This document shows positions 1-33,080 of a stretch of DNA of 64,000 bases, piece by piece. The DNA comes from Solitalea canadensis DSM 3403. Its GTDB lineage: Bacteria; Bacteroidota; Bacteroidia; Sphingobacteriales; Sphingobacteriaceae. Under the pieces are notes generated by a model. The model did no database searches and had not been told where the DNA came from. It was given only the letters and a program-made list of their open reading frames with translations. The number at the start of each line of letters is the position of its first letter. Position 1 is the stretch's first letter. Where the stretch lies: contig NC_017770.1 in assembly GCF_000242635.2 (NCBI RefSeq), positions 3,794,669 through 3,858,668 on the forward strand, given 5' to 3'. Both the position numbers and the translations under genes were made by a program.

Positions 1-321
1 ATAAAAGAAGCACAGGAATTGGTTGATAAGTGGATCAATACAACCGGTGTACGCTATTTCAGTGAATTAACCAACATGGCGATATTAACTGAGGAAGTAG
101 GCGAAGTTGCCCGCTTAATGAGTCGTATCTACGGCGACCAATCGTTTAAAGAAAGTGATAAAGGAAAAGAGTTAAACGATGAGCTTGCGGATGTGCTTTG
201 GGTATTAATCTGTATCGCCAACCAAACCGGAGTAGACCTATCAGCGGCTTTAGAGAAGAACTTCGAAAAGAAAAGCATCAGGGATGCGGAACGGCATAAG
301 AATAATGAGAAACTTAAGTAG
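1..321 (+). CDS. MazG-like nucleotide pyrophosphohydrolase (5' truncated)
   Basis: The reading frame is open from the first base of the window (I-K-E-A-Q-E-L-V-D-K...), so the true start lies upstream; a TTG at 19 is only the first possible internal start. The product is a small all-alpha NTP-pyrophosphatase of the MazG/dUTPase-like superfamily. Visible are the EExxE metal motif (EEVGEVAR) and, about 30 residues later, the ExxD motif (ELADVLW). These coordinate Mg2+ for hydrolysis of (d)NTPs to monophosphates. The length visible (about 106 residues) is close to a complete single-domain family member, so only a few residues are missing. The substrate cannot be told from sequence. The gene converges on comB across a periodic hairpin. 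Confidence 0.85.
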   Translation: MKEAQELVDKWINTTGVRYFSELTNMAILTEEVGEVARLMSRIYGDQSFKESDKGKELNDELADVLWVLICIANQTGVDLSAALEKNFEKKSIRDAERHKNNEKLK

Positions 322-383
322 TTAATAGTTGATGGTTCATAGATCATAGCACTTACTATGAACCATCATCCATGAACTATGAA
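321..383. repeat. heptamer-periodic intergenic hairpin, site A
   Basis: The left arm is four 7-nt units (gttaata, gttgatg, gttcata, gatcata; 321-348). The right arm is four 7-nt units (ctatgaa, ccatcat, ccatgaa, ctatgaa; 356-383). The arms pair best between 331-342 and 356-367 (12 bp). It lies between two convergent genes and overlaps the last codons of comB, so it may act as a bidirectional terminator. Its architecture matches four other sites in this window. Confidence 0.7.
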
Positions 384-1084
384 CTTCTCACAATTTGCCC
401 ATTCTTAATCACGGGTACAGAGTCAAGGATATCCACATTTAAGCAAAACTCAATATCTTTTTCAATACCTAGTTTTTTAAGGCGTTCACTGTGGGAGGTT
501 TTCTTCATGTATTCATTCAGATTACCTTGGGCACACAAATACAGGTCTTCGGCTAATACAGATGAATCACACCATGCATCAAATTTGTCTTTTAACTTAT
601 TTACAACTGCACCTGCAAATAGGGTATCTTCCAGGTTAACCTTGTTTTTCCAGCCAGAACATAACAAGAAAACATTCTTGTCTTGCTTAACTAAGTAATC
701 ACAAACTGCAGTAAGATTCAAAAAGGAACCTATAACAATTTCGTCTGCATTTTTAGATTCATTGATTGCATGTGTGCCATTTGTGGTTGTAAGCACCAAT
801 GTCTTACCGGCTACTTTTTCCTTCGTATAACTAAACGGAGAATTTCCAAAGTCAAAACCTGCAACAACTTCACCATTACGCTCTGCACCTAACAGATGGC
901 CATGGTCCTTATAAGACAGACATTCTTCTACACTTGCAACAGGAATAATCGCTGCAGCTCCATTATCAATTCCATAGCTTATTGAAGAGGTAGCCCTGAA
1001 AATATCAATTACCACAACAATGCTTCCTTTTAAATCATATAATGGTAAAAGAGCGGGAGTCAAGCAGACTTCGAGGTGTTTCAT
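377..1084 (-). CDS. comB: 2-phosphosulfolactate phosphatase family protein (ComB-like)
   Basis: The protein has 235 residues, the usual length for the ComB family. Recognisable segments are the N-terminal VVVIDIFRATSS, the central LLGAERNGE with DFGNSPF, and LVLTTTNGTHAI. In methanogens ComB removes phosphate from 2-phospho-3-sulfolactate on the way to coenzyme M. Bacterial homologues are common outside that pathway, and the substrate here is unknown (sulfolactate or another phospho-acid; inference). The start ATG at 1084 is followed directly by family-typical residues (MKHLEVCLTP). It follows gcvT on the same strand, separated by periodic hairpin site B. No coenzyme M or sulfonate genes are nearby. 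Confidence 0.85.
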   Translation of the reverse strand: MKHLEVCLTPALLPLYDLKGSIVVVIDIFRATSSISYGIDNGAAAIIPVASVEECLSYKDHGHLLGAERNGEVVAGFDFGNSPFSYTKEKVAGKTLVLTTTNGTHAINESKNADEIVIGSFLNLTAVCDYLVKQDKNVFLLCSGWKNKVNLEDTLFAGAVVNKLKDKFDAWCDSSVLAEDLYLCAQGNLNEYMKKTSHSERLKKLGIEKDIEFCLNVDILDSVPVIKNGQIVRSS

Positions 1085-1090
1085 TTAACT

Positions 1091-1158
1091 AGATTTGAGA
1101 TTGGAGATTGGAGATTTGAGACTGATTTGCATTTTCTCAAATCTCATATCTCATATCT
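1091..1158. repeat. heptamer-periodic intergenic hairpin, site B
   Basis: Left arm: agatttg, agattgg, agattgg, agatttg (1091-1118), then a degenerate fifth unit. Right arm: tctcaaa, tctcata, tctcata (1135-1155). Each right unit complements the left units with mismatches. It fills the gap between gcvT and comB, which are transcribed in the same direction. No U-tract is obvious, so a role as a plain terminator is uncertain. Confidence 0.7.
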
Positions 1159-1160
1159 TC

Positions 1161-2237
1161 TTATTTAAAAGGGTATTTAACCACTTTGGCTTTTACTTTA
1201 TTATCGCGGATACCGATAAACAACTCAGTTCCTTCTTTGCTATTATCAAGCGTTACATAACCCATCCCGATGGCTTTCTGTAAAGAAGGGGCCTGAGTTC
1301 CAGATGTAACACGACCAATCTTAGTTCCGGCAGCATCAAAAATCTCATAATCATGACGTGGAATTCCACGGTCAATCATTTCAAAACCAACTAATTTACT
1401 TTTTAATCCCGCTTCTTTTTCTGCTTTAAGCGCTGTCGAGTTGGTAAATTCTTTTGTGAATTTTGTAATCCAACCTAAACCGGCCTCTAAAGGAGAAGTA
1501 GTATCATCAATATCATTTCCGTAAAGAGCAAAGCCCATTTCTAAACGCAATGTATCACGAGCACCTAAACCAATTGGTTTGATACCAAACTCAGCACCTG
1601 CTTCAAAAATAGCTTTCCAAATCTGTTCGGCATGTTCGTTTTCGAAATAGATCTCAAACCCTCCTGCTCCGGTATAACCTGTTGCTGAAACCACTACATT
1701 ATCAACACCGGCAAACTTGCCTTTCTTGAAGCTGTAGTATTCCATACTAGCAAGATCAAAATCGGTAAGCTTTTGCAAAGCAGCAGCTGCTTTTGGACCT
1801 TGAACAGCTAATAAGCTTGTTTTATCAGAAATGTTATGCATTTCTACGTTGTTAGTATTGCGCTCACTGATCCAGTTCCAGTCTTTTTCAATGTTTGAAG
1901 CGTTTACTACCAACATATATGTTTTATCGTCGATGCGATAAACTAAAAGGTCATCTACAATACCGCCATTTTCATTAGGAAGGCAAGAGTATTGAACCTT
2001 ACCATCAAAAAGTTTAGAGGCGTCATTAGATGTTACGCGTTGAATAAGTTCTAAAGCGTTTTCACCTTTAAGAATAAATTCACCCATGTGTGATACGTCG
2101 AAAACGCCCACACCATTTCGTACGGTTGCATGTTCATCATTAATACCAGTGTATTGAACAGGCATATTATAACCAGCAAAAGGAACCATTTTAGCTCCTA
2201 ACGCAATGTGTACGTTTGTTAAAGCTGTAGTCTTCAT
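1161..2237 (-). CDS. gcvT: aminomethyltransferase, glycine cleavage T protein
   Basis: The 358-residue protein has the length and layout of GcvT: an N-terminal folate-binding GcvT domain ([27 protein letters not shown] near the start, then [13 protein letters not shown]) and a C-terminal barrel domain ([21 protein letters not shown]). It transfers the aminomethyl group from lipoyl-GcvH to tetrahydrofolate, giving methylene-THF and ammonia, in the cytoplasm. The gcvH and gcvP partners are not adjacent, which is usual in Bacteroidota. A good TAnnTTTG promoter lies 30 nt upstream. No glycine riboswitch-like structure was seen in the 204-nt leader. Confidence 0.97.
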
Positions 2238-2267
2238 TAAAAGTTTCGATTGAATTAAAAGGTGAGC

Positions 2268-2297
2268 AAAGGTAACATTATATTATAAGGCACAAAA
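2268..2297 (-). promoter_or_regulatory. Bacteroidota-type promoter for gcvT
   Basis: On the minus strand TACCTTTG (2275-2268) fits the TAnnTTTG -7 consensus. It is preceded, about 18 nt upstream, by TTTTG (2297-2293) as the -33 element. The box ends 30 nt before the gcvT ATG. Confidence 0.5.
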
Positions 2298-2441
2298 GGA
2301 TAATAGCAGTAAAGCCTAAATAGATAAATTACACAAAGGTGCAAGGTCACAAATTATTATATCAACTACCAATTGAGTACACGATCAAATGCTTAGCCTT
2401 GTTAATTTAGAGGGGTTTTGAGTCTTTATCTTTAAACGGGA

Positions 2442-2654
2442 CTATTTCAATTTATCTTTAAATTTCCCTAATGCATCAGCCAATGAAGTAGAAGGAACGC
2501 TGTGATCAATTGCGGCATCAATCTCCTTAGCAGATTCTGTAAGCATTTTGATAACATCAGCAGTTTTCAGATTAAGACGTTTTAAATCCTTAAAATTCAT
2601 TAAAATACCTTCCGGTTCTCCTTTGGTATTAGTTATATAAGTAATTCCTTGCAT
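2442..2654 (-). CDS. small protein, Phd/YefM-antitoxin-like N-terminus, orphan
   Basis: The 70-residue protein begins MQGITYITNTKGEPEGILM. This resembles the N-terminal strand region of Phd/YefM or related antitoxin-like proteins, in which a dimerisation beta-sheet precedes helices. No convincing toxin gene follows it: the 204 nt down to gcvT hold no good frame. It sits 4 nt after the rnhB stop on the same strand, so it is probably co-transcribed with rnhB. I do not assign a function; the antitoxin resemblance is weak and rests on pattern only. Confidence 0.6.
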   Translation of the reverse strand: MQGITYITNTKGEPEGILMNFKDLKRLNLKTADVIKMLTESAKEIDAAIDHSVPSTSLADALGKFKDKLK

Positions 2655-2658
2655 TGTT

Positions 2659-3264
2659 TTATTTACTAAATTCTAATTCAAGTTGATCTGGCAATAAGGT
2701 AAAAGACATACGATGAAAGGGTGTGGTGCCTAATTTCTTTATTCCATCACGGTGTTTTTTTGTTGGGTATCCCTTATTATTGACCCAGTCATAACCAGAA
2801 AACTGTTCATGCAATTGAGTCATATAGTCATCCCGATACGTTTTGGCCAATATGGATGCTGCTGCAATCGAGTAATATTTCCCATCGCCTTTTATGATAC
2901 AAGCATGCGGCAATGTTTGATACTTCTTAAAACGATTACCATCAATGATCAAATACTCGACTTTACTATTTAGCTGGTCAAGGGCCCTGTGCATGGCCAG
3001 AAATGAAGCATTCAGGATATTTATTTTGTCAATTTCGACATTATCGACCATTGCTACCGAAAATGCAATTGCATGATCTTCAATAAATGACCTTAATTCA
3101 TAGCGCTTACTTTCTGTGATTATTTTGGAATCGTTCAGTTCCGGATGTTCGAAATCTTTTGGTAAAATAACAGAAGCCGCAAAAACCGGCCCAGCCAGGC
3201 ATCCTCTTCCAGCTTCGTCACAACCAGCTTCTATTAATTCATCCTGATAAAATGCCTTGAGCAT
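2659..3264 (-). CDS. rnhB: ribonuclease HII
   Basis: The 201-residue protein carries the RNase HII signature at the N-terminus (GCDEAGRGCLAGPVFAASVIL), supplying the first Asp-Glu of the metal site. A later acidic residue lies in LIIDGNRF, and KGDGKYYSIAAASILAKTYRD gives the last conserved block. It cleaves RNA of RNA-DNA hybrids, including single ribonucleotides misincorporated in DNA. The ATG start at 3264 gives a family-typical N-terminus (MLKAFYQDELIEAGCDEAG). It precedes the small gene at 2442-2654 with 4 nt spacing. Confidence 0.96.
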   Translation of the reverse strand: MLKAFYQDELIEAGCDEAGRGCLAGPVFAASVILPKDFEHPELNDSKIITESKRYELRSFIEDHAIAFSVAMVDNVEIDKINILNASFLAMHRALDQLNSKVEYLIIDGNRFKKYQTLPHACIIKGDGKYYSIAAASILAKTYRDDYMTQLHEQFSGYDWVNNKGYPTKKHRDGIKKLGTTPFHRMSFTLLPDQLELEFSK

Positions 3265-3313
3265 AAATTATATTCTACTTGCACAAAACGTTTTGATCAT
3301 TTTGCGCCATTTT

Positions 3314-4549
3314 TTAATAAACTCTAAACGTAAGCAAAGTTATATCATCATCCTGAAGATCATTACCAATGAGCTTTTTTATTTTGTCCATCAGGGCGAT
3401 ATTTATTTTTTCCGGTTTTAAGTTTTGATGCTCGAAAACAAAGTTGATCAAATCTGTCTCCGAAAAAAGATCTGCATGATCATGATCAAGTTCTACTAAG
3501 CCATCTGTGTAATTAAATACCAATGAATTAGGCTCAATAATTTCTTCTCCCACATTTATAAAAGGCAAGTCCTCAAAAACACCAATCATAGTTGTACCAG
3601 ACTTCAGCTCCTTAATATTAAGATTATTGATCAATAAAGAAGGATTATGTCCGGCATTTACATATGTTAATTTACGGGTGCTAAGGTCATAATGTCCTAA
3701 AAAGAGAGTGATATGCCTGTCGCCTTCTGTAAGTGCAAAAATGGCTTTATTAACGGTAGAAAGCAACATGTTAAGGGGTAACTTCTGAAATGCCAAAGCA
3801 CGTAAACTTGCCTGAAAATTGGCCATTAACAATGCCGCACTCACTCCTTTGCCCGAAACATCTGCAATACAGAAAATAAACTCGTTTTTATTAAGCTCAA
3901 GGAAATCGTAATAATCACCGCCAATATTATGTTGTGGAACATATCGCGCCGACATACTTATTTTCTCGTTGTCTGGTAGCGACCTCGGAAATAACATCGA
4001 TTGCACTTCGACTGCCAGCCGAAGATCACGCTGCAAACGTTCTTGCAAAATACGTTCTTCCAACAAACGACGATTTTCTGCAGCTACTATAATTACATTA
4101 ATAATCGTTTGAATGAGCTTTACATCGATGTCTACCTGGTCAAATTCACGGGTAAGATAATCGCCGATTAATACATAGCCATATATTTGTTCTTTGTATT
4201 CAACGGGTATAAGTAATCTGAATTCGGAAAGAACTTGTGAGTCGACGCTATTTATATAGGTAACAATCTTATATTCGGCTAAAACAGCAGTAAGGTCAGC
4301 TTCTTGCTCCTCATTTAGCTTTTCTACTCCATAAGAAGCCGGTTGAGTCCATAGGCTATCTTCCCCTCTTGAAAACACTCGCAACTTCCCTATTCTAAGC
4401 TGATTTTTTAAGATCAACTCTGTCATTTGGAACAAGGAATCTATCGAATTATTATTATTAATAGCCCTTGTGATCTCAAGTAAAGAATTCAGCTCTACCT
4501 GGCGACGAATTAAAAGTTCTAATATTTCCTGATTAGTCTCGTTGTTCAC
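3314..4549 (-). CDS. PP2C-type (SpoIIE/RsbU) serine phosphatase with N-terminal GAF-like region
   Basis: The protein has 411 residues. The C-terminal half is a SpoIIE-type PPM phosphatase: SARYVPQHNIGGDYYDFL, FCIADVSGKGVSAALLMAN, YVNAGHNPSLL and FNYTDGLVE hold the Asp/Gly metal-binding motifs. Residues about 20-165 look like a GAF-type sensor. A charged helical linker (NRRLLEERILQERLQRDLRLAVEVQ) joins the two, as in RsbU/RsbP-like regulators. It probably dephosphorylates an anti-anti-sigma (STAS) protein, but no STAS or HATPase partner gene is adjacent. It is cytoplasmic, with no signal peptide or membrane segment. Confidence 0.9.
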   Translation of the reverse strand: MNNETNQEILELLIRRQVELNSLLEITRAINNNNSIDSLFQMTELILKNQLRIGKLRVFSRGEDSLWTQPASYGVEKLNEEQEADLTAVLAEYKIVTYINSVDSQVLSEFRLLIPVEYKEQIYGYVLIGDYLTREFDQVDIDVKLIQTIINVIIVAAENRRLLEERILQERLQRDLRLAVEVQSMLFPRSLPDNEKISMSARYVPQHNIGGDYYDFLELNKNEFIFCIADVSGKGVSAALLMANFQASLRALAFQKLPLNMLLSTVNKAIFALTEGDRHITLFLGHYDLSTRKLTYVNAGHNPSLLINNLNIKELKSGTTMIGVFEDLPFINVGEEIIEPNSLVFNYTDGLVELDHDHADLFSETDLINFVFEHQNLKPEKINIALMDKIKKLIGNDLQDDDITLLTFRVY

Positions 4550-4720
4550 TTATTTATGACATCCTTTTTTAACCACAGAAAGACAAGATAATATAATCGT
4601 TATTACTTTGATTATTATCTTTTTAACTCAATTATTACACAAGAAAAAAAATCGTTCAAATTCTTCTTCATTGTGAACTGATCATGTTAACCGAAAATAA
4701 CAAATTAGAATGAAAGATCA

Positions 4721-5941
4721 TTAACCAGAAGTCTGACTTCGTACATTAAATGCATCAGTTAAGCCTACAGAAACGAGGTTAAAAGCATACACAATAAGCA
4801 TAATAGCTAATCCAGGTAATACGGCCAGATACGCTGCATCAATAATGATGTAGCCATAATGTTCTTTTATCATTCCACCCCATGACGGAAATGGAGGTTG
4901 CACCCCAAATCCTAAAAAACTTAATCCTGCTTCCAGCAATATTGCAGATGCAAAATTCGCAGATGCTACAACTAATATCGGGCCCGAAATATTTGGTAAG
5001 ATGTGTCTGATAATTATTCTGGCATTACTGAATCCCATAGCTCTACCAGCTTCAACATACTCCACTTCACGGATACCCATTATTTGTCCGCGCACCATAC
5101 GTGCAACATCAACCCAGGTTGTTAAACCAATAGCAATGAATACCTGAAAAAATCCCTTACCTAACGCAAACGAGATGGCGATCACAATCAATAATGATGG
5201 CAACGACCAAACTACATTTATCAACCAAGATATAAACTGATCTAACCAACCTCCATAATAACCCGCTAAAGCCCCTAGAGCGATGCCTATGACTAGGGAA
5301 ATTAATACCGACATAAATCCTACAGAGAGAGAAATACGCGAACCAAGAATTAACCGACTTAGCATATCCCTTCCATACAAATCAGTTCCCAACCAATATT
5401 TACGGTTTACTATATTTTCTGAAGTTATTTTTTTCTGCAAATCAGCAATATTTTCCGATTTCTTTTGTCCGTAAATGGTAGTGAATGTTATTTTTTCACC
5501 ATCCTTAACCACTTTAGTTTCGGCTTGCAACGGATAAACTACATCCGCTAATGAATATCTTTTCTCTAATTTCTCATCACCTGAAATTCCAGTGTATTCA
5601 TCGATGATAATACTGTCAGCATTAAATTTGAAAGAATTAATGGGGACAAAATCAAAAAAGTCGGGCTGACCAAAGAATAACTTAGTAAATACATTTACAG
5701 TGTCAATCTGTTGATTTTTCCTAATTGACAAAAATTTGAAAGTTGATCCCGGATGTTTGGTACTCAACTGGACATTCATCCGGTTAGACATAGGAGTATC
5801 GTCGGGTGTAATTAAATACCCTAAGAAGGAAATCAGCACAAAAAAGGCGATAACCACCAATCCAAAAACAGATAGTTTATTTCGAAGAAAGCGTTTCTTA
5901 GTTCGTTGCCAAGGTGTTTCGGGAGCAATCGCCAAAGCCAT
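4721..5941 (-). CDS. ABC transporter permease, DppC/OppC family, with periplasmic insertion
   Basis: The 406-residue protein is about 100 longer than a typical DppC. The N-terminal OppC_N segment (TPWQRTKKRFLRNKLSVFGLVVIAFF) leads into TM1. About 130 hydrophilic residues then precede the core, which starts at YWLGTDLYGRDMLSRL. The core has five predicted membrane helices and the EAA loop (EAGRAMGFSNARIIIRHILPN) that docks on the ATPase. It would import di/oligopeptides or similar solutes through the inner membrane. No DppB, ATPase or binding protein gene adjoins, so the partners are elsewhere. The long extracytoplasmic insert is common in Bacteroidota homologues. Confidence 0.93.
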   Translation of the reverse strand: MALAIAPETPWQRTKKRFLRNKLSVFGLVVIAFFVLISFLGYLITPDDTPMSNRMNVQLSTKHPGSTFKFLSIRKNQQIDTVNVFTKLFFGQPDFFDFVPINSFKFNADSIIIDEYTGISGDEKLEKRYSLADVVYPLQAETKVVKDGEKITFTTIYGQKKSENIADLQKKITSENIVNRKYWLGTDLYGRDMLSRLILGSRISLSVGFMSVLISLVIGIALGALAGYYGGWLDQFISWLINVVWSLPSLLIVIAISFALGKGFFQVFIAIGLTTWVDVARMVRGQIMGIREVEYVEAGRAMGFSNARIIIRHILPNISGPILVVASANFASAILLEAGLSFLGFGVQPPFPSWGGMIKEHYGYIIIDAAYLAVLPGLAIMLIVYAFNLVSVGLTDAFNVRSQTSG

Positions 5942-9289: not shown

Positions 9290-9296
9290 ATAGATT

Positions 9297-9436
9297 GCGG
9301 GTTGTAGGTTACGAATTGAGAGTAGTAAAATAAATTAAGGGTTGCGAATTATATGTATCGGTTACAAATTACTAATTATTTAACTAATCAGATAGATCAT
9401 AAACCTATAACACGGAACTCGCAACCCGTAATTCCA
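9297..9436. repeat. heptamer-periodic intergenic hairpin, site E
   Basis: The left units are gcgggtt, gtaggtt, acgaatt, gagagta (9297-9324). The right units are aacctat, aacacgg, aactcgc, aacccgt, aattcca (9402-9436). The middle (about 9339-9380) also reads roughly in 7-nt steps (gggttgc, gaattat, atgtatc, ggttaca). It fills the gap between greA and the HIT gene, both on the minus strand. Confidence 0.6.
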
Positions 9437-11845: not shown

Positions 11846-11930
11846 GTATTTTGGATTAAATGTACCCTGTTACCGCATATAATTTTTTATCTTGCCGAGA
11901 GTTTTATTCGGCCTATATGCTGATAACTGA

Positions 11931-11938
11931 TAACTTTG
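11931..11938 (+). promoter_or_regulatory. -7 box for pdxA
   Basis: TAACTTTG fits TAnnTTTG and ends 28 nt before the pdxA ATG. No clear -33 TTG lies at the right distance, so this is a partial match. Confidence 0.4.
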
Positions 11939-21921: not shown

Positions 21922-24108
21922 ATGAAAAACTCTATCCGTTTACTTTGGGCAACCTGTGTTACTTTTGCCATTATTAATCCGGCAAAAGCCCAAACAAGTC
22001 AGTCAACATTGATGAATACCAATTTACCCCCGGCACCTTCTGCCAAAAAAGAAGAACATAAATTAGAAAAGCATGGCGATATCCGCATCGACAACTATTA
22101 TTGGATGAAGCTTACAGATGATCAGAAAAATGCTAAAACACCCGACGCCCAAACAAAGGCTGTTCTGGATTATTTAAATGCAGAAAATGCCTATACCAAA
22201 TCGGCAATGGCTGCTACCGAAGAACTTCAAAAAAAGCTTTTTGAAGAAATGAAAGGTCGAATAAAGCAGGACGATCAGAGTGTGCCATTTAAAGACAAGG
22301 GGTTTTGGTATTATACCCGCTTTGAAAAGGGAAAAGATTATGCTTATTACTGCCGGAACATAGAAACCGGAATGAACCCCACCTCCGAAGAAATTCTTGT
22401 AAACGGTCCAGAATTAGCAACAGGGCACGATTATTGGGCTCTTGGAGGATATTCTGTAAGTGACGACAATAAATTATTAGCCTTCGGAATTGACACGGTA
22501 AGCCGTCGTATCTATACCGTTTATTTTAAAGACATTGCCTCCGGTGCTATTTTGCAAGATAAACTAGAGGGTACTAGTGGTGGAGTAACCTGGGCAAACG
22601 ATAATAAGACTGTTTTTTATACCAAAAAAGATCCGGTAACACTTCGCGATAATACTGTTTGGAAACATAAGCTTGGTACGCCTCAAAGTGCAGATGTGAT
22701 GGTCTTTGACGAAAAAGATGACACCTTTTCTACAGGGGTTTTCAAAACAAAATCTGACAAATACCTTATGATCGGTAGCTGGCAAACGCTAAGTACTGAG
22801 TATCGTGTGCTTGATGCAAACAATCCGGATGGAGAATGGAGAGTTATACAACCTCGTGAGCGCAATCATGAGTATAATGTGGAGCATTATGGTGATAAAT
22901 TCTACATCATTACCAATCTTGATGCTAAGAACTTTCGCTTAATGGAGTGTCCGGTTGATAAAACAACCAAGGAAAACTGGAAAGAGGTAATTCCTCACCG
23001 CTCAGACGTTTTATTGGAAAACATCGACATCTTTAAGAACTACTATGTGGTAAGTGAACGTAAGAATGGGTTAACTCAACTCCGTATCATCAAATGGGCT
23101 GATAAAAGTGAGTACTATTTACCATTTCAAGACCAAGCTTATTTAGCCTACACCAGCGTAAACCGAGAATTTGATACAGATGTTCTGCGCTATGGTTACA
23201 CTTCCTTAACCACTCCCAATAGCATCTATGATTATAATATGGCTACAAAAGAGCGTATCCTGTTAAAACAGCAGGAAGTTGTTGGAGGATATAATCCGGA
23301 TGATTATGTAAGTGAACGTTTATACGCTACCGCAAAAGATGGCACAAAGATTCCGATCTCATTAGTTTATAAAAAAGGTTGGAAGAAGGATGGCAAAGCA
23401 CCATTACTTTTATATGCTTATGGTTCTTACGGTAACAGCATGGATCCAGGGTTTAGTTCGAACCGATTATCATTGCTTGATCGTGGTTTTGCTTATGCGC
23501 TCGCACATATTCGTGGTGGACAAGAGCTTGGTCGCGATTGGTATGAGAATGGTAAACTGTTAAAAAAGAAGAATACGTTCACCGATTTTATTGATTGCGG
23601 AGATTTTTTAGTCGCTCAGAAGTATACTTCAAAAGAAAAACTATTTGCAATGGGCGGTAGCGCAGGAGGACTATTAATGGGAGCAGTTACCAATATGCGC
23701 CCGGATCTTTGGAAAGGTGTTGTTGCTGCAGTTCCTTTTGTTGATGTGGTTACTACTATGTTGGATGAAAGTATTCCGCTAACTACAGGAGAATTTGATG
23801 AATGGGGAAACCCTAATGATAAAGTGTATTACGATTACATGAAGAGTTATTCTCCCTATGATAATGTTGAAAAGAAAAATTATCCAAATATGATAGTGAC
23901 AACCGGCTATTGGGATAGCCAGGTACAGTATTGGGAACCAGCAAAATGGGTGGCCAAACTGCGCGAACTCAAAACAGATAAAAACCTTTTATTGCTACAC
24001 ACAAATATGGAAGCAGGACATGGAGGTAAATCTGGTCGGTTTGAAGCACTGAAAGAAATAGCATTGGAATATGCATTTATGCTAAATTTGGCAGGAATTA
24101 CAAACTAG
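21922..24108 (+). CDS. S9 family peptidase, oligopeptidase B-like, exported
   Basis: The 728-residue protein has a signal peptide ending near AKAQ. A beta-propeller follows (about residues 60-440), then the alpha/beta-hydrolase domain. The catalytic triad is Ser580 (GGSAGGLL), Asp665 (TGYWDSQVQYW) and His700 (EAGHGGKSG), the spacing of prolyl oligopeptidase/protease II. HIRGGQELGRDWYENGK is the oligopeptidase B signature upstream of the nucleophile. It would cut short peptides after basic residues (or proline) in the periplasm. It lies alone between a terminator and periodic hairpin site C. Confidence 0.95.
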   Translation: MKNSIRLLWATCVTFAIINPAKAQTSQSTLMNTNLPPAPSAKKEEHKLEKHGDIRIDNYYWMKLTDDQKNAKTPDAQTKAVLDYLNAENAYTKSAMAATEELQKKLFEEMKGRIKQDDQSVPFKDKGFWYYTRFEKGKDYAYYCRNIETGMNPTSEEILVNGPELATGHDYWALGGYSVSDDNKLLAFGIDTVSRRIYTVYFKDIASGAILQDKLEGTSGGVTWANDNKTVFYTKKDPVTLRDNTVWKHKLGTPQSADVMVFDEKDDTFSTGVFKTKSDKYLMIGSWQTLSTEYRVLDANNPDGEWRVIQPRERNHEYNVEHYGDKFYIITNLDAKNFRLMECPVDKTTKENWKEVIPHRSDVLLENIDIFKNYYVVSERKNGLTQLRIIKWADKSEYYLPFQDQAYLAYTSVNREFDTDVLRYGYTSLTTPNSIYDYNMATKERILLKQQEVVGGYNPDDYVSERLYATAKDGTKIPISLVYKKGWKKDGKAPLLLYAYGSYGNSMDPGFSSNRLSLLDRGFAYALAHIRGGQELGRDWYENGKLLKKKNTFTDFIDCGDFLVAQKYTSKEKLFAMGGSAGGLLMGAVTNMRPDLWKGVVAAVPFVDVVTTMLDESIPLTTGEFDEWGNPNDKVYYDYMKSYSPYDNVEKKNYPNMIVTTGYWDSQVQYWEPAKWVAKLRELKTDKNLLLLHTNMEAGHGGKSGRFEALKEIALEYAFMLNLAGITN

Positions 24109-24177
24109 ATTTGAGATCTGAGATATTAGATTTGAGATTGATTATTTTAGCTCACTTCTCAAATCTAATATTTCAAA
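24107..24177. repeat. heptamer-periodic intergenic hairpin, site C
   Basis: Left units are agatttg, agatctg, agatatt, agatttg, agattga (24107-24141). Right units are tctcaaa, tctaata, tttcaaa (24157-24177). The unit sequence is close to that of site B, 23 kb away. It begins inside the stop codon of the S9 peptidase gene and ends 10 nt before the aat ATG. Confidence 0.7.
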
Positions 24178-24186
24178 CTTAACCGG

Positions 24187-25935: not shown

Positions 25936-25939
25936 GACT

Positions 25940-26446: not shown

Positions 26447-26462
26447 AAGATACATATAGAGT

Positions 26463-26645
26463 ATGTCGGCAAAAAAAGCATTTGTATTGCGATTAGATCC
26501 GGAAATGTTAAAAGAACTGGAACGTTGGGCTGCTTCAGAGTTTCGAAGTATCAATGGCCAAGTTGAATATATCCTATTTGAAGCGCTTAAGAAACGAGAT
26601 AAAAATTTTAAGCTGAAAAGCGGAGAAGGGGAAAAAGACGAATAA
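26463..26645 (+). CDS. Arc-type ribbon-helix-helix DNA-binding protein
   Basis: The 60-residue protein has the RHH pattern: a short basic strand (KKAFVLRLD) followed by helix PEMLKELERWAASEF, a turn with S-I-N-G-Q and helix VEYILFEALKKRD, then a charged tail. Dimers would insert the strand into the DNA major groove. It is the third gene of the SPFH operon (16 nt after the previous stop) and is the natural candidate to bind the phased ATATCA array at 25043-25070. No toxin gene is linked, so an antitoxin role is not supported. Confidence 0.85.
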   Translation: MSAKKAFVLRLDPEMLKELERWAASEFRSINGQVEYILFEALKKRDKNFKLKSGEGEKDE

Positions 26646-26648
26646 AGG

Positions 26649-26681
26649 AAGGGTTGCTAGCAAGCAACCCTTTCTTTATTT
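26649..26681. terminator. terminator after the SPFH-PH-RHH operon
   Basis: Arms aagggttgct (26649-26658) and agcaaccctt (26663-26672) are followed by TCTTTATTT. It lies between convergent genes and is preceded on the minus-strand side by the lutB-like stop at 26689, so it may serve both. Confidence 0.8.
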
Positions 26682-26688
26682 ACTATGT

Positions 26689-28077
26689 TTAAGCATTATC
26701 ATTCTTATGTAATTCTCGCCATTGTTCATTAAATGACTTTGGAGCCATAGCAGGAAGTTCTCTGCGTTTCCCCCACGTTTTAGCAGCAAATTTTTTCAAG
26801 AAGAAAGCTTTCCATTTACCACCCAACATATTCATGAAATTTCGTTTAAGCATTCCTTTCTTCCAGAAATACCAAGTCCACATTTCAGCCTTTGTCGCCA
26901 GATTCTCATTCACCGCATCTCTTCTGTTCAATAATAGCATTTTATGAATATCAATATGAACAGGACACACCTCTGAGCATTTACCACACAAGCTCGATGC
27001 ATAACTTAAATGTTTAAATTCCTGCATTCCACTTAAGTGCGGAGTAATTATCGAACCTATTGGGCCACTATAAGTAGTTTCATAAGTATGACCACCGATA
27101 TTTTTATAAACCGGACAGCCATTTAAACATGCCCCGCAACGAATACAGTATAAACCTTGTCTCTGTTCTTTCTGTGCCAATAAATTTGTCCGGCCATTAT
27201 CAAGCAATACCACATACATTTCTTCCGGACCATCCATTTCTTCGGCTTGCTTAGGACCGCTAATTATTGAATTATAAACTGTTAAATTTTGTCCAGTTCC
27301 ATGGGTTGCCAAGAGCGGCCAGAAAAGATCAAGATCATAAATACTTGGAATTATCTTTTCAATACCAACAATGGCAATATGAACTTTAGGAAAGGTTGTT
27401 GACAAACGAGCATTTCCTTCATTCTCTGTTAAGCAAATACTTCCGGTATCGGCCAAAAGGAAATTCCCTCCTGTTATCCCAATATCAGCAGTTACATATT
27501 TATTTCTAAGCAGCTCACGGGCCTTTTGAGTCAATTGCTCAGGAGTTGAATCTATCGGAGTACCAAATTTTTCATGAAACAGCTTTGCAATATCTTCCTT
27601 TGATAAGTGCATTGCAGGTGTAACAATATGATAAGGTTTTTGACCTAACAATTGAACAATATATTCACCCAAATCAGTTTCAAGCGCTTCAATTCCATGA
27701 TGTTCCAGAAATTCATTTAATTCAATTTCCTCTGTAGTCATTGATTTTGACTTCACCATGGTTTTGGCATTATACTTTTCGAAAATGCCCAGCACTTCTT
27801 TCCTGGCTTCTTCCGCATCGTTAGCCCAAATTACTTTCCCCCCTCTACGGGTAAAGTTAGCTTCAAATTCAACCAGGTATTTTTCGAGATTTTCTATTGT
27901 GCGCCATTTGGCGATATTGGCTTTCTTACGGGAATTCTCAAGATCAAAAAAGCGAGATACACCACGCGAAACGGCGGCATCATATTTTCCAATGTTAAAA
28001 TTGATCTTACGTCGGTGTTCAAGATCAAAAGCCTTGATTTCGGCTTCAGAGAGGAACTGATCAGAATATTGACTCAT
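26689..28077 (-). CDS. lutB: LutB-like iron-sulfur protein (LUD domain plus two 4Fe-4S motifs)
   Basis: Starting at ATG 28077 gives 462 residues; the longer frame to 28140 adds an untypical hydrophobic leader. The LUD domain occupies about residues 60-290 (KTMVKSKSMTTEEIELN, DIGITGGNFLLADTGSICLTENEGNARL). It is followed by a ferredoxin-like pair CIRCGACLNGCPVY and CGKCSEVCPVHIDIHKMLL, then a C-terminal helical region. In LutABC the protein takes part in oxidation of L-lactate to pyruvate at the membrane. LutA and LutC genes are not next to it here: a terminator lies on one side and a peptidase gene on the other. Confidence 0.93.
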   Translation of the reverse strand: MSQYSDQFLSEAEIKAFDLEHRRKINFNIGKYDAAVSRGVSRFFDLENSRKKANIAKWRTIENLEKYLVEFEANFTRRGGKVIWANDAEEARKEVLGIFEKYNAKTMVKSKSMTTEEIELNEFLEHHGIEALETDLGEYIVQLLGQKPYHIVTPAMHLSKEDIAKLFHEKFGTPIDSTPEQLTQKARELLRNKYVTADIGITGGNFLLADTGSICLTENEGNARLSTTFPKVHIAIVGIEKIIPSIYDLDLFWPLLATHGTGQNLTVYNSIISGPKQAEEMDGPEEMYVVLLDNGRTNLLAQKEQRQGLYCIRCGACLNGCPVYKNIGGHTYETTYSGPIGSIITPHLSGMQEFKHLSYASSLCGKCSEVCPVHIDIHKMLLLNRRDAVNENLATKAEMWTWYFWKKGMLKRNFMNMLGGKWKAFFLKKFAAKTWGKRRELPAMAPKSFNEQWRELHKNDNA

Positions 28078-28239
28078 GCAATCAAAAATAAATAAAATGC
28101 TTAATACTTGTTGGATATAAAACAAGCATTTTATGAACAAAAGTTAGTTTCTCTAAGCTTTCATCCTTAAACAAAGTTGTCTACCATTTGATATTATATA
28201 GGTAGTAAATAGAAGACCGGGTATAGCATCGTAATAACA

Positions 28240-28261
28240 AAGGCTGCATTATTGCAGCCTT
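28240..28261 (-). terminator. hairpin after the M28 peptidase gene
   Basis: Arms aaggctgca (28240-28248) and tgcagcctt (28253-28261) with a 4-nt loop. On the minus strand it is followed by TGTTATTA, a weak U-tract. Confidence 0.6.
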
Positions 28262-28268
28262 CTAATTT

Positions 28269-29843
28269 TTATCTATTTGCAGGAAAATCATTTTTAACGT
28301 CAACCACTGGACGCTTATCTCTATTTGCCAAATCCCAGGCTGTGTTAAATACCAATTGTGCACGTTTTGCCATTAGCTCAAAATGGATTTTCTCCACTTT
28401 ATCACCCGGTTGGTGGTAGTCTGCATGTACACCATTAAAGTAGAAAACAACCGGAATACCGTGCTTGGCAAAGTTGTAATGATCGGAACGATAATAAAAA
28501 CGGTTCGGGTCTTTCGGATCATTGTATTTATAATCCAGTTTTAAATTAACACTATTTTTATTGGCTTCTTCACTGATTTTATGCAAATCTGTACTTAATT
28601 TATCAGAGCCTATTAAGTAAACATAGTTTGTGTCTGTTAAATGGGCGTCGTCAATACGACCCACCATATCGATATTTAAATCGGCGATCGTGTTATTAAA
28701 TGCAAAAACAGGATGGTCTGAATACCATTGCGACCCTAATAACCCCTTTTCTTCACCTGTAAAAGTCATAAATAAAATACTGCGCCGAGGCCCTTTTCCG
28801 GCTTTCTGAGCGGTGGTGAATGCCTGAGCCATCGCAAGCACTGAAGTTGTACCAGAACCATCATCATCCGCACCATTATTAATTTTACCATTAATAATAC
28901 CGATATGATCGTAATGAGAAGATATCACTAATACTTCCTCTTTAAGATCTGTTCCGGGCAAAAAGCCCAGTACATTCATCGCTTTAACAGGGGCCTCTTT
29001 AGTTTGAAATTTTACGGCAAATGGCTGCTTTACAACTGCAGATTGTGGTTTCGCAGTATTCTGCATTTTCGCCACCAACTGAGCTATGTTTTTTCCTGTA
29101 GGTTTTAGTAATTCTGTGGCCAATTCTTCCGAAATATATACCACAGGTGCTGTTGGATTTTCTTCTTGTTTTTCAGGAAACTCAATGCTTTTTGCTCTCA
29201 ACTGTGTCGCATAGCCGGCCATTGAAGTTCTTAGGTTTGGATAAACGGCAAGAATAAGTTTGGGATGTTTAAGCTGTAACTCCCGAAATTTCTTACGAGT
29301 ATCTAACGTGTAATCAGAGTAGTTTTCCTGCCCAGTGATCATACTCTTTCCGCTTTTATCAAAAGGCTCACCACTAATGATCATTACTGCTTTGCCTTTC
29401 ACCTCAATGTTGGCAAAATCATTCCAGTTTCCGGCTCCTATTCCATAACCAGCAAACACCCATTGACTTTCCTTTGCGTCAATAGATGCAGGTAAATTCC
29501 TTCCTACTAATAAAAAGTCTTCAGCAAATTTAAAATCAGTACTGTTAACTGTAATTGTTGCATCACCAATTGAACGTTCAATTAGAGGCACAGTTTGAAA
29601 ATAAGAACCATTTACAGGAGCCTGCAGTCCAAGTTGTTTAAAATGAGCCTGAATATAGTCAGCCGCTAGTAAAGATCCCTTTTGTCCTGTTTCCCTACCT
29701 TCAAACGCATCAGAAGCTAAAACAGATAGATGTTTTTTCAGATACGATGCGTTAATTTCTCCAGCAAATGTCTCAGCACTTTGCGCTAAGCTGCTTTCTG
29801 TCATTGCCAGTACTAACAGAAAAGGAACAATTACATTCTTCAT
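28269..29843 (-). CDS. M28 family zinc metallopeptidase with PA domain, secreted
   Basis: The 524-residue protein starts with a signal peptide (MKNVIVPFLLVLAMTESSLAQS). A protease-associated (PA) insert occupies about residues 95-260. The M28 zinc ligands are visible: His and Asp in SSHYDHIGIINGKINNGADDDG, the Glu pair in FTGEEKGLLGSQ, Asp in LNIDMVGR, and the last His in HADYHQPGDK. It would be a secreted aminopeptidase feeding peptide use. It is transcribed towards the LutB-like gene, with a hairpin between them. Confidence 0.95.
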   Translation of the reverse strand: MKNVIVPFLLVLAMTESSLAQSAETFAGEINASYLKKHLSVLASDAFEGRETGQKGSLLAADYIQAHFKQLGLQAPVNGSYFQTVPLIERSIGDATITVNSTDFKFAEDFLLVGRNLPASIDAKESQWVFAGYGIGAGNWNDFANIEVKGKAVMIISGEPFDKSGKSMITGQENYSDYTLDTRKKFRELQLKHPKLILAVYPNLRTSMAGYATQLRAKSIEFPEKQEENPTAPVVYISEELATELLKPTGKNIAQLVAKMQNTAKPQSAVVKQPFAVKFQTKEAPVKAMNVLGFLPGTDLKEEVLVISSHYDHIGIINGKINNGADDDGSGTTSVLAMAQAFTTAQKAGKGPRRSILFMTFTGEEKGLLGSQWYSDHPVFAFNNTIADLNIDMVGRIDDAHLTDTNYVYLIGSDKLSTDLHKISEEANKNSVNLKLDYKYNDPKDPNRFYYRSDHYNFAKHGIPVVFYFNGVHADYHQPGDKVEKIHFELMAKRAQLVFNTAWDLANRDKRPVVDVKNDFPANR

Positions 29844-29921
29844 TGGATTAAATTGAGAGCTAAATGTAGCAAAATGTTGGTTGAAGCAGCAGCGTTATAC
29901 GTGACAATTTTGTAGCAATAA

Positions 29922-29955
29922 AAAAAGGATTATGTATATGTACATAATCCTTTTT
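29922..29955 (-). terminator. rho-independent terminator after rpiB
   Basis: A perfect 15-bp stem (29922-29936 with 29941-29955) and a 4-nt loop. On the minus strand it ends in a seven-T run, 22 nt past the rpiB stop. Confidence 0.9.
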
Positions 29956-29977
29956 CTGTTTACTCGAACTATTATCG

Positions 29978-30409
29978 TTATACGCAATCAATTTTATTTA
30001 CGCGATTGGCATGACGACCACCTTCAAAAGGAGCGGTAATAAATCGTTGGGTAATTTCTTTTGCATCTTCCAATGAAACAAAACGAGCAGGAATACATAC
30101 AATATTTGCATTGTTATGACCTCTTGCTAACTCTGCTAACTCCGGCAACCAACAAATCGCCGCACGAATACCAGCATGTTTGTTTGCCGTAATTGCAACA
30201 CCATTAGCGCTTCCACAAATCAACACACCTAAGTCATATTCATTGGCTAATACTGATTCAGCCACAGGGTGCACATAATCAGGATAATCAACTGAGTCGG
30301 TTGAATACGGACCAAAATCCTTTGTTTCAATACCTTGAGCCTCTAAAACTTCAATTAAAGCTTTTTTGTACTCAAAACCGGCGTGATCGCCTCCTAATGC
30401 TATTTTCAT
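29978..30409 (-). CDS. rpiB: ribose 5-phosphate isomerase B
   Basis: Starting at ATG 30409 gives 143 residues, the normal RpiB length, and the family N-terminus MKIALGGDHAGFEYKKAL. The frame to 30445 adds 12 unlikely residues. The active-site segments LGVLICGSANGVAITANKHAGIRAA (catalytic Cys and anion hole) and RGHNNANIVCIPARF are present. It interconverts ribose 5-phosphate and ribulose 5-phosphate in the pentose phosphate pathway. It follows tatC with a 53-nt gap and is probably in the same transcript. Confidence 0.96.
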   Translation of the reverse strand: MKIALGGDHAGFEYKKALIEVLEAQGIETKDFGPYSTDSVDYPDYVHPVAESVLANEYDLGVLICGSANGVAITANKHAGIRAAICWLPELAELARGHNNANIVCIPARFVSLEDAKEITQRFITAPFEGGRHANRVNKIDCV

Positions 30410-30462
30410 TTTATTATTATTTACACGTTCAACACAAGTCAGCAAACTATTTTTGCTCCGAC

Positions 30463-31347
30463 TTACGAATTATAAAATTCGGCTTCTTTCTTAGCTTTAT
30501 TACGTGCTACCGCTGCCGACACAAAAATACTGATTTCAAACAAAAGAAACAGTGGTATTGCAACGATGGTTTGCGTCATCATATCTGGACTAGGCGTGAT
30601 AAATGCCGAAACCAATAATATTAATACAATCGCAAATCTACGGTTACTACGCAACAGCTTAGGTGTAACAATACCCATCTTTGAAAGGAAATAGATAATG
30701 ATTGGCAATTCAAAGGTAAGTCCACAGCCTAATGATAATGTTCCAACGGTAGATAAATAGGAATCCAGAGAAACCTGATTCAGGATCTCTGCACTTACTG
30801 TATATGAACCCAGAAAGTTAATTGTAAGTGGGACAATTATGAAATACCCGAATAACACACCAATTCCAAACAACACAGATGTAAAGAAGATCAAACCGTT
30901 TGCATACTGACGCTCCTTAATTTCCAGGGCTGGTTTAATAAACCTCCAAAGCTCCCAAATAAAATATGGAAAGGCTAGTGCAATACCCACCAGAAAAGAG
31001 GATGTTAAGTGAATCATGAACTGACCGGCTAATTCGGTATTCATAATCACAAAATTGATCTTATCCACACAAAAATCTGCAATATTATATTTTGCAGCTA
31101 TCTGGCACATCATACGATAGGTCCAAAAGTCTGGATTTTTAGGCCCTAAAATAATCTGATCAAAGATGATTTCTTTATAGCTAAAAGCAAGACCAGTAAA
31201 AATTGCAATGGCAATAACGGAACGAATCAAATGCCATCTTAGCTCTTCCAGATGATCGAAGAATGACATCTCTGATTCAATGGTATGCTTATCTTTTAAT
31301 ACGTATTTGGTTATTAGATTACTTCTACGGCTATTATTATCAGACAT
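30463..31347 (-). CDS. tatC: Sec-independent protein translocase TatC
   Basis: The 294-residue protein has the six-helix TatC fold. The signature N-terminus MSFFDHLEELRWHLIRS binds the twin-arginine signal. FPYFIWELWRFIKPALEIKER is the conserved second block. A cytoplasmic extension of about 25 residues precedes the core. It is the receptor subunit of the Tat export system in the inner membrane. No tatA/B gene is adjacent. A TATTTTTG box lies 18 nt upstream. Confidence 0.97.
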   Translation of the reverse strand: MSDNNSRRSNLITKYVLKDKHTIESEMSFFDHLEELRWHLIRSVIAIAIFTGLAFSYKEIIFDQIILGPKNPDFWTYRMMCQIAAKYNIADFCVDKINFVIMNTELAGQFMIHLTSSFLVGIALAFPYFIWELWRFIKPALEIKERQYANGLIFFTSVLFGIGVLFGYFIIVPLTINFLGSYTVSAEILNQVSLDSYLSTVGTLSLGCGLTFELPIIIYFLSKMGIVTPKLLRSNRRFAIVLILLVSAFITPSPDMMTQTIVAIPLFLLFEISIFVSAAVARNKAKKEAEFYNS

Positions 31348-31364
31348 GTGCGTTAAATGAGTTG

Positions 31365-31372
31365 CAAAAATA
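31365..31372 (-). promoter_or_regulatory. -7 box for tatC-rpiB
   Basis: TATTTTTG on the minus strand fits TAnnTTTG and ends 18 nt before the tatC ATG. No clear -33 element is present. Confidence 0.4.
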
Positions 31373-31590
31373 CTTAAATGAATGAATATTGAATGAAGTT
31401 ATTTAACTCAAGTTGTCCGTTCAATAAGATCCCCTATCTGGACAATAGATCGGTAACAATATCTTGTTTACATTATGCCTATAATCCTGTTAAGGCCTTA
31501 ACAATTTGCTAAGGTTTTGCACTTGACTGCACAAAGCTACTTTTATAATCTCTGCACACTTTTACTCCATGGAGTATTCATTCAAAAACA

Positions 31591-31624
31591 AAAAACGCAT
31601 GATTTATGACGATCATGCGTTTTT
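31591..31624 (-). terminator. rho-independent terminator after accC
   Basis: Arms aaaaacgcatgat (31591-31603) and atcatgcgttttt (31612-31624). On the minus strand it runs into TTTTTTGTTTTTG. It ends the acyl-lipid operon 25 nt past the accC stop. Confidence 0.9.
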
Positions 31625-31649
31625 GTGTATTACAGAAACATTACTGTTT

Positions 31650-32990
31650 CTATTTTTCCATATCAAAAGTCTCCATAAACTTAGTGGTAAAGTTACCAGC
31701 TCTGAAGTTAGGGTCTTTCATTAATTTCAAATGGAAAGGAATTGTCGTTTTAATACCTTCAATTACAAATTCACTTAATGCACGCTCCATTGTACAAATA
31801 GCTTCCTCGCGGGTTTGTGCTACAGTAATCAGTTTAGCGATCATTGAATCATAATTAGGAGGGATCACATAACCTGCATATACGTGTGTATCTACACGAA
31901 CACCATGACCACCCGGAGAGTGGAAATTAGTGATCCTACCTGGTGAAGGACGGAAGCCATTCATTGGATCTTCAGCATTGATACGGCATTCGATTGCGCA
32001 CATATCAGGGAAATATGAACGACCAGAGATCGGAACACCTCCGGCAACTTTGATTTGTTCTTTGATCAAATCGTAGTTAATAACTTCTTCCGTAACTGGA
32101 TGCTCTACCTGGATACGAGTGTTCATTTCCATGAAGTAGAAGTTGCGGTGTTTATCAACTAAGAATTCAATTGTTCCTGCACCTTCATAATTAACAGCAG
32201 AAGCTCCGGCAATTGCTGCCTCTCCCATTTTCTGACGAAGTTCTTCAGTCATAAATGGTGAAGGAGATTCTTCTACTAATTTTTGGTGACGACGCTGGAT
32301 TGAACAATCGCGCTCAGAAAGGTGACATACTTTTCCATATTGGTCACCAACAATTTGAATCTCAATGTGACGAGGATCTTCAACGAATTTCTCCAAATAG
32401 ATACCATCATTACCAAATGCAGCACCTGCTTCCTGACGAGCTGAATCCCAAGCTGGTTCAAAATCTTCGTCTTTCCACACAATACGCATTCCACGGCCAC
32501 CACCACCGGCAGTAGCTTTCAGAATTACCGGATAACCGATTTCATTGGCAACTTTAATACCTTCTTTTACATCACTTAATAAACCATCTGATCCCGGAAT
32601 AGTGGGTACACCGGCATTTTTCATGGTTTCTTTAGCAGATGCTTTATCTCCCATTGCATTGATCATCTCAGGAGAAGCACCAATAAATTTGATACCATTT
32701 TCTCGGCAAATTGATGAAAACTTAGCATTTTCAGACAAAAAGCCGTAACCTGGGTGAATTGCATCTGCATTTGTAATTTCTGCAGCCGCAATGATATTAG
32801 GAATATTTAAATAAGAATCTTTACTTGGAGCTGGCCCTATACAAACTGCTTCATCAGCAAAACGTACATGCAAGCTTTCACGATCTGCTGTTGAATAAAC
32901 AGCAACCGTTTTTATGCCCATCTCTTTACACGTACGAATAATTCGTAACGCGATTTCTCCACGATTGGCAATAAGTATTTTTTTAAACAT
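31650..32990 (-). CDS. accC: acetyl-CoA carboxylase, biotin carboxylase subunit
   Basis: The 446-residue protein begins [20 protein letters not shown], as biotin carboxylases do. It has the ATP-grasp glycine loop [14 protein letters not shown], the [23 protein letters not shown] block, the catalytic [19 protein letters not shown], and a C-terminal biotin carboxylase domain ([18 protein letters not shown]). It carboxylates biotin on AccB with ATP and bicarbonate, the first step of fatty acid synthesis. It is the last gene of the cluster, 95 nt after accB with periodic hairpin site D between them. Confidence 0.97.
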
Positions 32991-33000
32991 GAAATTAAAA

Positions 33001-33080
33001 TTGGTGAATTGGTGAATTTGTGAATTTGCGAATCTAAAAACTCAATATTTCCAAATCTTCAAATACTCAAACCCGCAAAT
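33001..33080. repeat. octamer-periodic intergenic hairpin, site D
   Basis: Left units are ttggtgaa, ttggtgaa, tttgtgaa, tttgcgaa (33001-33032). Right units are caaatctt, caaatact, caaacccg, caaat (33052-33080). The 8-nt step is exact in both arms. It occupies the gap between accB and accC, which should be co-transcribed, so it is not an obvious terminator. It could modulate relative AccB/AccC expression. Confidence 0.7.

Follow-up and report, generated by a model that had tools for sequence, protein, structure and literature searches.

Paired inverted arrays of degenerate heptads and octads at gene ends in Solitalea canadensis

The genome of Solitalea canadensis DSM 3403 (G000, a single contig of 5.2 Mb) contains a genome-wide class of paired inverted arrays, built from degenerate tandem units of seven or eight nucleotides (heptads and octads). 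Five intergenic sites, A to E, lie in the 64,000-nucleotide (nt) stretch analysed here (the window, G000:C1:3794669-3858668). A preliminary description of the window had read them as hairpins of one architecture, with a constant period and changeable sequence. That characterization holds across the genome, and a scan by period shows that the five gaps are not the sole cases.

Heptad and octad arrays are abundant across the genome

Periods were counted in an even sample of 864 kb, made up of the window and 40 about evenly spaced 20-kb stretches and containing 580 intergenic gaps. Tandem segments of period 7 number 48, against 0.6 in shuffled intergenic sequence, and those of period 8 number 8, against 1.2. 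Segments of period 14, a multiple of 7, number 39, and the remaining periods give 0 to 4 segments, near chance. The same sample holds 30 hairpins with period-7 arms and 9 with period-8 arms, compared with none of either in one shuffle. Period-9 arms are modestly over-represented too, with 8 hairpins versus 1 in one shuffle. Over the whole genome, the pattern (AGATTTG)3 with up to three mismatches has 88 overlapping matches, and the reversed pattern has none. A 50-kb Escherichia coli control gave no period-7 segment in 30 gaps, a sample too small to weigh, and a search of plasmids with a heptad string returned no match.

To avoid circularity, arrays were also collected by their tandem structure alone. 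This gave 108, of which 20 without a family were dropped and 88 kept. A complementary partner lies inward of 64 of these 88 and outward of 1 (shuffled 1.0). The arrays are handed as well as paired: among 67 hairpins, G outnumbers C in the left arm of 53, is outnumbered in 9 and equals it in 5, compared with 60, 49 and 13 for aperiodic hairpins. The G-bearing unit is thus directed inward from both gene ends. Of the 67 sites, which also underlie the unit and loop statistics, 39 belong to the even sample and the other 28 lie in stretches picked for their AGATTTG hits, so family frequencies among them are biased. The median loop is 41 nt.

The arrays sit at gene ends. The median distance from stop codon to hairpin is 7 nt (n = 82), compared with 23 nt for aperiodic hairpins (n = 161), and periodic hairpins occur in 2 of 97 divergent gaps versus 36 of 434 other gaps (P = 0.029). 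Where the stop codon lies within 3 nt of the hairpin, it is TAG in 13 of 27 genes, against a background of 20% (P = 0.001), as if array sequence had overwritten the gene ends and supplied the stop. A possible role in placing a stop codon in every frame was considered on account of the TAG or TGA present in most unit families; the left arm of the GTTNCGA family contains neither.

Units fall into recurrent families with a free position

Most units belong to about five families, GATNTGA, GTYNATA, GTCNTGA, GTTNCGA and GCTNTTA, with octads besides; the families, their consensus and their phase were chosen by visual inspection, and position 4 was not scored. Octad hairpins of the CGCAAAGA type form a further recurrent family (L104 3277-3324, L128 3606-3658 and 11506-11562, L199 11289-11339).

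In four of the five families entropy peaks at position 4 of the G-first unit; the exception is GTTNCGA, in which position 7 exceeds it (1.55 versus 1.29 bits). An earlier count of the free position kept only arrays in which the other six positions matched at 80%, a filter that favours that result. Mismatches were therefore recounted in 21-mers with at most three mismatches from (AGATTTG)3, a procedure in which no position is favoured. Position 5 of this unit, the N of GATNTGA, holds 53 of 95 mismatches in the chosen stretches of G000, 5 of 14 in three congeners (G001 to G003) and 2 of 2 in G023. C is rare at the free position in G000 (6 of 196 units); in loci that were retrieved from other genomes with the pattern it occupies this position in 3 of 15 units.

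Units resemble their family, not their neighbours

The preliminary description had suggested templated slippage or selection on structure alone as the origin of the arms. Neither is borne out by the unit statistics, for which only units agreeing with their family at four or more scored positions were kept. Neighbouring units within an arm are not closer to each other than to units of the same family at other loci (excess 0.007, standard error (s.e.) 0.008; at position 4, -0.043, s.e. 0.026), and the likeness between opposite arms barely exceeds that between arms of different loci (excess 0.010, s.e. 0.005). When arrays are picked without regard to pairing, the arms are unmatched beyond their family, with an identity of 0.773 to their own partner and 0.785 to the partners of other loci (rank 0.447, s.e. 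0.035; 70 arrays). The sense strand shows no bias that would mark selection for an RNA stem: G·U and A·C pairs number 42 and 33 in periodic hairpins, compared with 27 and 11 in aperiodic ones, and the sense strand folds more stably than its complement in 22 of 45 periodic hairpins and in 39 of 64 aperiodic ones (for the latter, Wilcoxon P = 0.010, sign test P = 0.10).

All 67 elements were compared with one another, as were the 38 loops of at least 30 nt. This gave one loop match, of 12 nt, and the best matches between elements are as long as a single arm. This agrees with the earlier judgement that no copied element of the repetitive extragenic palindromic (REP) kind is involved. Recent slippage, arm-to-arm copying, copying of whole elements and selection on RNA pairs are therefore poorly supported, because each lacks the mark expected of it.

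Templating by a reverse transcriptase or telomerase-like enzyme was also considered and rejected, as G000 has no RVT_1 match at E 0.001. RVT_1 has 16 matches in G002, several with equal scores as in a recently spread element, and none in the other three genomes of the genus. Loss of mismatch repair was set aside as well, because MutS-family matches are present in all four.

Sites in the window

Each site was compared with 1,000 dinucleotide shuffles of its own stretch (Table 1). At site A neither the hairpin score of 16.5 nor the period-7 score of 11.5 is attained by any shuffle. The same is true of site B (tested at 1085-1160; 14.0 and 19.0). At site C (tested at 24106-24186) no shuffle attains the hairpin score of 16.5 or, at period 7, the period score of 13.5, which 0.1% of shuffles attain when periods 5-12 are all considered. 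Site E (tested at 9290-9436) is weaker, with P = 0.002 for the hairpin and P = 0.01 for period 7, rising to 0.087 over periods 5-12. At site D (tested at 32991-33085) the period-8 array score of 22 is attained by no shuffle, but the hairpin finder returns no Watson-Crick hairpin (score 0). The plus strand of site D folds to -8.6 (z = 0.2), no better than shuffles; the minus strand, which is the sense strand for accB-accC, reaches -17.3. A, B and C are thus clear heptad hairpins, E is a weaker one and D is a strong octad array that hardly pairs. Chance is ruled out as a source for the class and for A, B and C, and only partly for E.

All five sites first reported are real but unequal, and strict steps of seven were overstated for E. 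The unit common to B and C, AGATTTG, is upheld. The other units had been called unrelated, but about five families recur genome-wide, and those of A (AGTTCAT) and E (GTTACG-like) are found elsewhere.

Table 1 Features of the window
Feature	Position	Setting	Description	Arms and loop
Site A	319-384	convergent gap	heptad hairpin, family AGTTCAT/AGTCCAT	arms 319-342 (left), 356-379 (right)
Site B	1091-1158		heptad hairpin, family AGATNTG	arms 1098-1121 and 1135-1158, outer unit from 1091
Site C	24106-24175		heptad hairpin, AGATNTG	best arms 24119-24137 and 24157-24175
Site D	32999-33080	accB-accC gap, minus strand	octad array TTGGTGAA/TTTGCGAA at 32999-33032	opposite arm poorly matching
Site E	9297-9436		weaker heptad arms, GTTACG/TTGCG family	best arms 9333-9350 and 9416-9433, 65-nt loop
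Short-loop stem	26641-26680	convergent gap 26646-26688	ordinary stem	18-nt arms, 4-nt loop

The TAG stop of the gene to the left of site A forms the opening bases of the array, and at site C the TAG stop of the upstream gene lies inside the first unit. By NCBIfam matches, site B lies between a 2-phosphosulfolactate phosphatase-like gene and gcvT, both on the minus strand; site C is 3′ of an oligopeptidase B-like gene and 5′ of an aat-like gene; and the gap of site E is flanked by greA and a HIT-family gene. The window contains no Rfam family at gathering score and no tRNA.

Sites persist between congeners while unit families turn over

Identity between G000 and the congeners at fourfold-degenerate sites is 0.37-0.385, with a floor of 0.29, and is near saturation. 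The orthologous gaps can still be followed; congener hairpins at A, B, D and E were partly judged by eye, as the automatic finder misses some of them (at site A, G003 in one run and G001 in another). By eye, the gap of site A has an AGTCCAT-type hairpin in G001 and G003 and an AGTCTTG-like one in G002. At site B the same family is found in G001, a short GTTACGA-type array in G002 and another hairpin in G003, which looks 9-nt-stepped by eye. Hairpins are present at site E in all three congeners, and all three have AATTTGAA octads at site D. The gene upstream of site C has no match in the congener stretches examined, so that the downstream gene alone is common; the hairpins before aat in G001 and G002 are not orthologous upstream, and site C was accordingly discarded as a case of terminator exchange at an orthologous gap.

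The comparison covered 21 non-divergent gap pairs in which G000 carries an array. On the congener side, 6 of these gaps contain an array, 3 a terminator-like stem, 2 a hairpin of another kind and 10 none of these. Of the 93 pairs that lack an array in G000, 4 have one in the congener (P = 0.0026 against the 6 of 21; the pairs are not all independent). The automatic gap classes include simple AT-rich false positives, and two of the four pairs classed as having an array only in the congener are site E.

Abundance differs between lineages. In G002, period-7 segments number 5 against 5 shuffled (603 gaps), whereas the same comparison gives 48 against 3 in G000 (595 gaps of the window and the 40 spaced stretches). 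Thus some sites persist, unit families turn over and abundance is lineage-specific.

Heptad and octad arrays recur across the Bacteroidia

Among the matches listed, the first named relatives of the accB gene in the window come from a Sphingobacteriales metagenome-assembled genome, Pararcticibacter and Mucilaginibacter, at 66-69% identity. Eighty accB loci, from Bacteroidota by title with few exceptions (1.36 Mb, 946 gaps), contain 35 period-7 segments, compared with 2.8 after shuffling, and 30 of period 8, compared with 1.2. Octad arrays have partners in 15 of 35 cases (1.0 shuffled), with the G-bearing unit first in 13 and the C-bearing unit first in none. Heptad arrays have partners in 8 of 35 (0.2 shuffled), G-first in 4 and C-first in 3; a fixed handedness is thus no general property of heptads. 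By eye, the accB-accC gaps of L012, L033, L053, L055 and L083 (Aquimarina, Winogradskyella, Aequorivita) have heptad-like arms in reversed order, with the C-bearing unit first. Over the readable accB-accC gaps of 40-300 nt, 19 of 57 hold a heptad or octad array, against 2.6 shuffled, or 11 against 0.2 at a stricter score, and the units differ between genera.

Of 41 genomes, G000 included, 26 contain matches to the AGATTTG pattern, but 15 also match the reversed control, with strong matches in G009, G015 and G025. As the reversed unit, GTTTAGA, is itself a heptad in some genomes, presence of the pattern alone is weak evidence outside match-rich genomes. Taken as a type, heptad and octad arrays are shared across the Bacteroidia.

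Relation to known repeats

The closest known kind is the GGGNATC heptads of Xanthomonas, of which the G000 arrays, going by the extracts of the paper that describes them (Rehm et al. 2015, PMC4692102), are an AT-rich variant. These heptads, and the GGGGA(C/T)T heptads of Nostoc PCC 7120, are dispersed, intergenic, tandem and degenerate, as in G000, and rare in divergent gaps and coding regions. In the same extracts the Xanthomonas heptads form pairs in convergent orientation, 70 in Xcc and 75 in Xac; most lie between the same genes in both species, with much variation in length and sequence. Inverted pairs are few in Nostoc. The G000 arrays share with Xanthomonas a sense-strand G-bearing unit near stops, convergent pairs and scarcity in divergent gaps. 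They differ in comprising several AT-rich families, most without three-G runs, in being mostly partnered and in having octads as a second class. The extracts also report that the G-rich Xanthomonas unit forms G-quadruplexes in vitro and that transcript starts or ends are more frequent at copies able to form them; they identify no regulatory function. None of the listed G000 units contains a three-G run, although GTTNCGA units that end in GG make GGG across the unit boundary. As most of the AT-rich families lack such runs, quadruplexes cannot explain the whole architecture.

A second likeness is to the P6b stem of the Nostoc tRNA-Leu(UAA) group I intron, which in the extracts of Kaasalainen et al. 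(2015, PMC4476775) is a heptad stem of classes TDNGATT and NNTGAGT, one class having been independently replaced by the other at a single site. By inspection these motifs fit TGAGATT and CTTGAGT of G000, in the GATNTGA and GTCNTGA families only, two of the five. P6b is a single site in a structured intron RNA, whereas the G000 arrays are dispersed at gene ends. TAACTGA repeats, intergenic tandem heptads of Beggiatoaceae, Cyanobacteria and some Bacteroidetes, are, according to the extracts of PMC4679880, direct and mostly 5′ of start codons, with one inverted case in the main genome. In the window, CTGATAACTGATAAC at 11920-11934, upstream of pdxA, comprises one full and one partial TAACTGA heptad, and a similar stretch is found in G002. 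The palindromes of REP elements with their associated tyrosine transposases (RAYT), treated in PMC3733652, are likewise dispersed extragenic inverted repeats, but the G000 arrays lack a common element sequence, a loop match longer than 12 nt and a link to a Y1 gene. RbpB of Bacteroides was rejected as a reader of the arrays: the part of its literature consulted describes a 41-nt motif and a preference for single strands, and no heptad. In the open-licence literature of PubMed Central, no description of the Bacteroidia arrays was found among the matches listed, and six unit strings occur in no paper.

Explanations for the arrays

With somewhat less than even confidence, we favour the view that the paired inverted arrays would be a DNA-level repeat class, situated mainly just 3′ of stop codons, whose units are maintained singly by something that acts across the genome. 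A process on single units, whether exchange or recognition, is what remains because slippage, copying and RNA-pair selection lack their marks. Its likeliest form, which we put forward tentatively and with recognition of the units by a factor close behind, is short-tract template exchange at replication between arrays of the same family, for which 7-14 nt of common sequence would serve. The inverted arm would make hairpin-directed template switching likely, and replication of a hairpin, which the preliminary description had also raised, may have been the original source of the second arm. The arrays would then be mostly tolerated gene-end filler, recruited now and then as a terminator stem.

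Several observations weigh against this view. No exchange event was directly seen. Arms picked by the hairpin finder are more like their own partner (0.861) than those of other loci (0.795; P = 1.5e-6, 40 sites), and a unit-shuffle test on arms of this kind gives 16.0 versus 14.7. We ascribe this match mainly to the choice of register and ends, because it is gone in arrays picked without pairing; there may nonetheless be some real coupling between the arms. GTYNATA shows likeness within loci (0.753 versus 0.684). Old slippage would be traceless at free positions, synonymous sites being near saturation. Where only G000 has an array, its gap shows no excess length over the orthologous one (median difference +11 nt in 14 pairs, versus +2 nt in 89 pairs without an array; P = 1.0), and best hairpins of period 7 number 8 in G002 and 29 in G000. 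The chief point against exchange alone is the free position: position 5 accounts for 26 of the 46 mismatches counted in the even G000 sample and for 9 of the 12 in G029, a genome from another family. Exchange within genomes alone would let lineages drift apart, so this agreement likely reflects a shared constraint.

That agreement also favours the next alternative, namely that a conserved DNA- or RNA-binding protein reads each heptad and that arrays are selected as multi-site binding elements at gene ends. Unit variants that act as independent draws from one motif would fit such a reader, as would the recurrence of arrays at congener gaps despite near-saturated synonymous sites, subject to the dependence among pairs noted above. 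We nonetheless consider a conserved reader unlikely: several unit families exist side by side, G000 has about ten times as many tandem segments as G002, no candidate factor was found, and the accB loci vary most at another position (position 4 of the A-first unit holds 17 of 21 mismatches and position 5 only 3).

Less probable again are stem-loops at mRNA 3′ ends, acting as terminators without a T-tract or as exonuclease barriers and selected for RNA structure. Placement just 3′ of stop codons would suit them, as would the ordinary short-loop stem of G000 at 26646-26688, which stands opposite AGTC-type period-7 hairpins in G001 and G003, and the three congener terminator-like stems counted above. 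At L181 (8127-8265), after what is presumably a sucD-like gene, the hairpin stem AGATATGCGATGTG, two heptads long, is followed by TTTTTT; this stem and T-run are identical over 43 nt in G002 (L229 near 3056), within a 1.8-kb region of 85% identity. TTTT, however, lies 3′ of only 3 of 43 periodic co-directional hairpins, compared with 19 of 64 aperiodic ones, which together with the accB-accC position of site D bears out the earlier remark that simple termination does not fit all sites. The lack of sense-strand bias in G·U pairs or stability, arms unmatched beyond their family and the long loops also tell against RNA structure, and 5 of 34 loops of at least 40 nt enclose a separate terminator-like stem (shuffled 0.4). 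The idea that the arrays are an outer decoration of terminators fails as well, as terminator-like stems occur at similar rates in gaps with and without a periodic hairpin (convergent, 5 of 12 versus 48 of 84; co-directional, 5 of 24 versus 77 of 314). Among five paralogous coding sequences of G029, moreover, one loop holds in-frame heptad hairpins in two, another palindrome in one and a short loop in two, with 25, 25, 37, 52 and 88 nt between the conserved segments, the heptad cases being 52 and 88; hairpins in frame inside coding sequence disallow a general terminator role. A further copy, which also has a heptad hairpin, is itself divided over two stretches; the G029 stretches concerned are L252, L253, L255 and L256.

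Replication slippage at hairpins, with the period set by the polymerase footprint, is improbable. Among long simple repeats, those with seven-base units are the most frequent in many bacteria, and a polymerase-footprint proposal is recounted for them in extracts of PMC4679880 and PMC4692102; other genomes also contain uniform, slippage-like arrays (L031, L057). In G000, neighbouring units have no excess likeness and the arrays are drawn from recurrent families, not random words. Very improbable is a mobile palindromic element moved by a RAYT/Y1 or another transposase. Dispersed inverted repeats are what such an element would leave. Rickettsia palindromic elements insert in frame into coding sequence as mobile units, and the two in-frame G029 cases are reminiscent of them, though no clean insertion boundary was seen. 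Loops and elements show no common sequence beyond the matches reported above; Y1_Tnp has two matches in G000 and none in G001, which has AGATTTG arrays; and the 3.3-kb loci of the two G000 Y1 genes contain no period-7 or period-8 arrays. RAYT mobility was rejected on these grounds.

Implications

Heptad repeats have until now been scattered curiosities of Xanthomonas, Nostoc and Beggiatoaceae, read as quadruplex formers or slippage products. In G000 this placement and handedness are seen in AT-rich families that mostly lack G-runs, together with a sister class of octads. In a wider and rather unlikely reading, a conserved factor would read heptads such as GATNTGA singly, with one position free, and keep inverted arrays after stops; the arrays would then be a Bacteroidia-wide gene-end signal, with a job that falls to ordinary terminators at some of the orthologous sites in relatives, and the heptads of Xanthomonas and Nostoc would belong to this system too, differing in their units. 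The unit statistics disfavour recent slippage, copying and RNA-pair selection, and, with the architecture separated from the quadruplex idea, its cause becomes testable.

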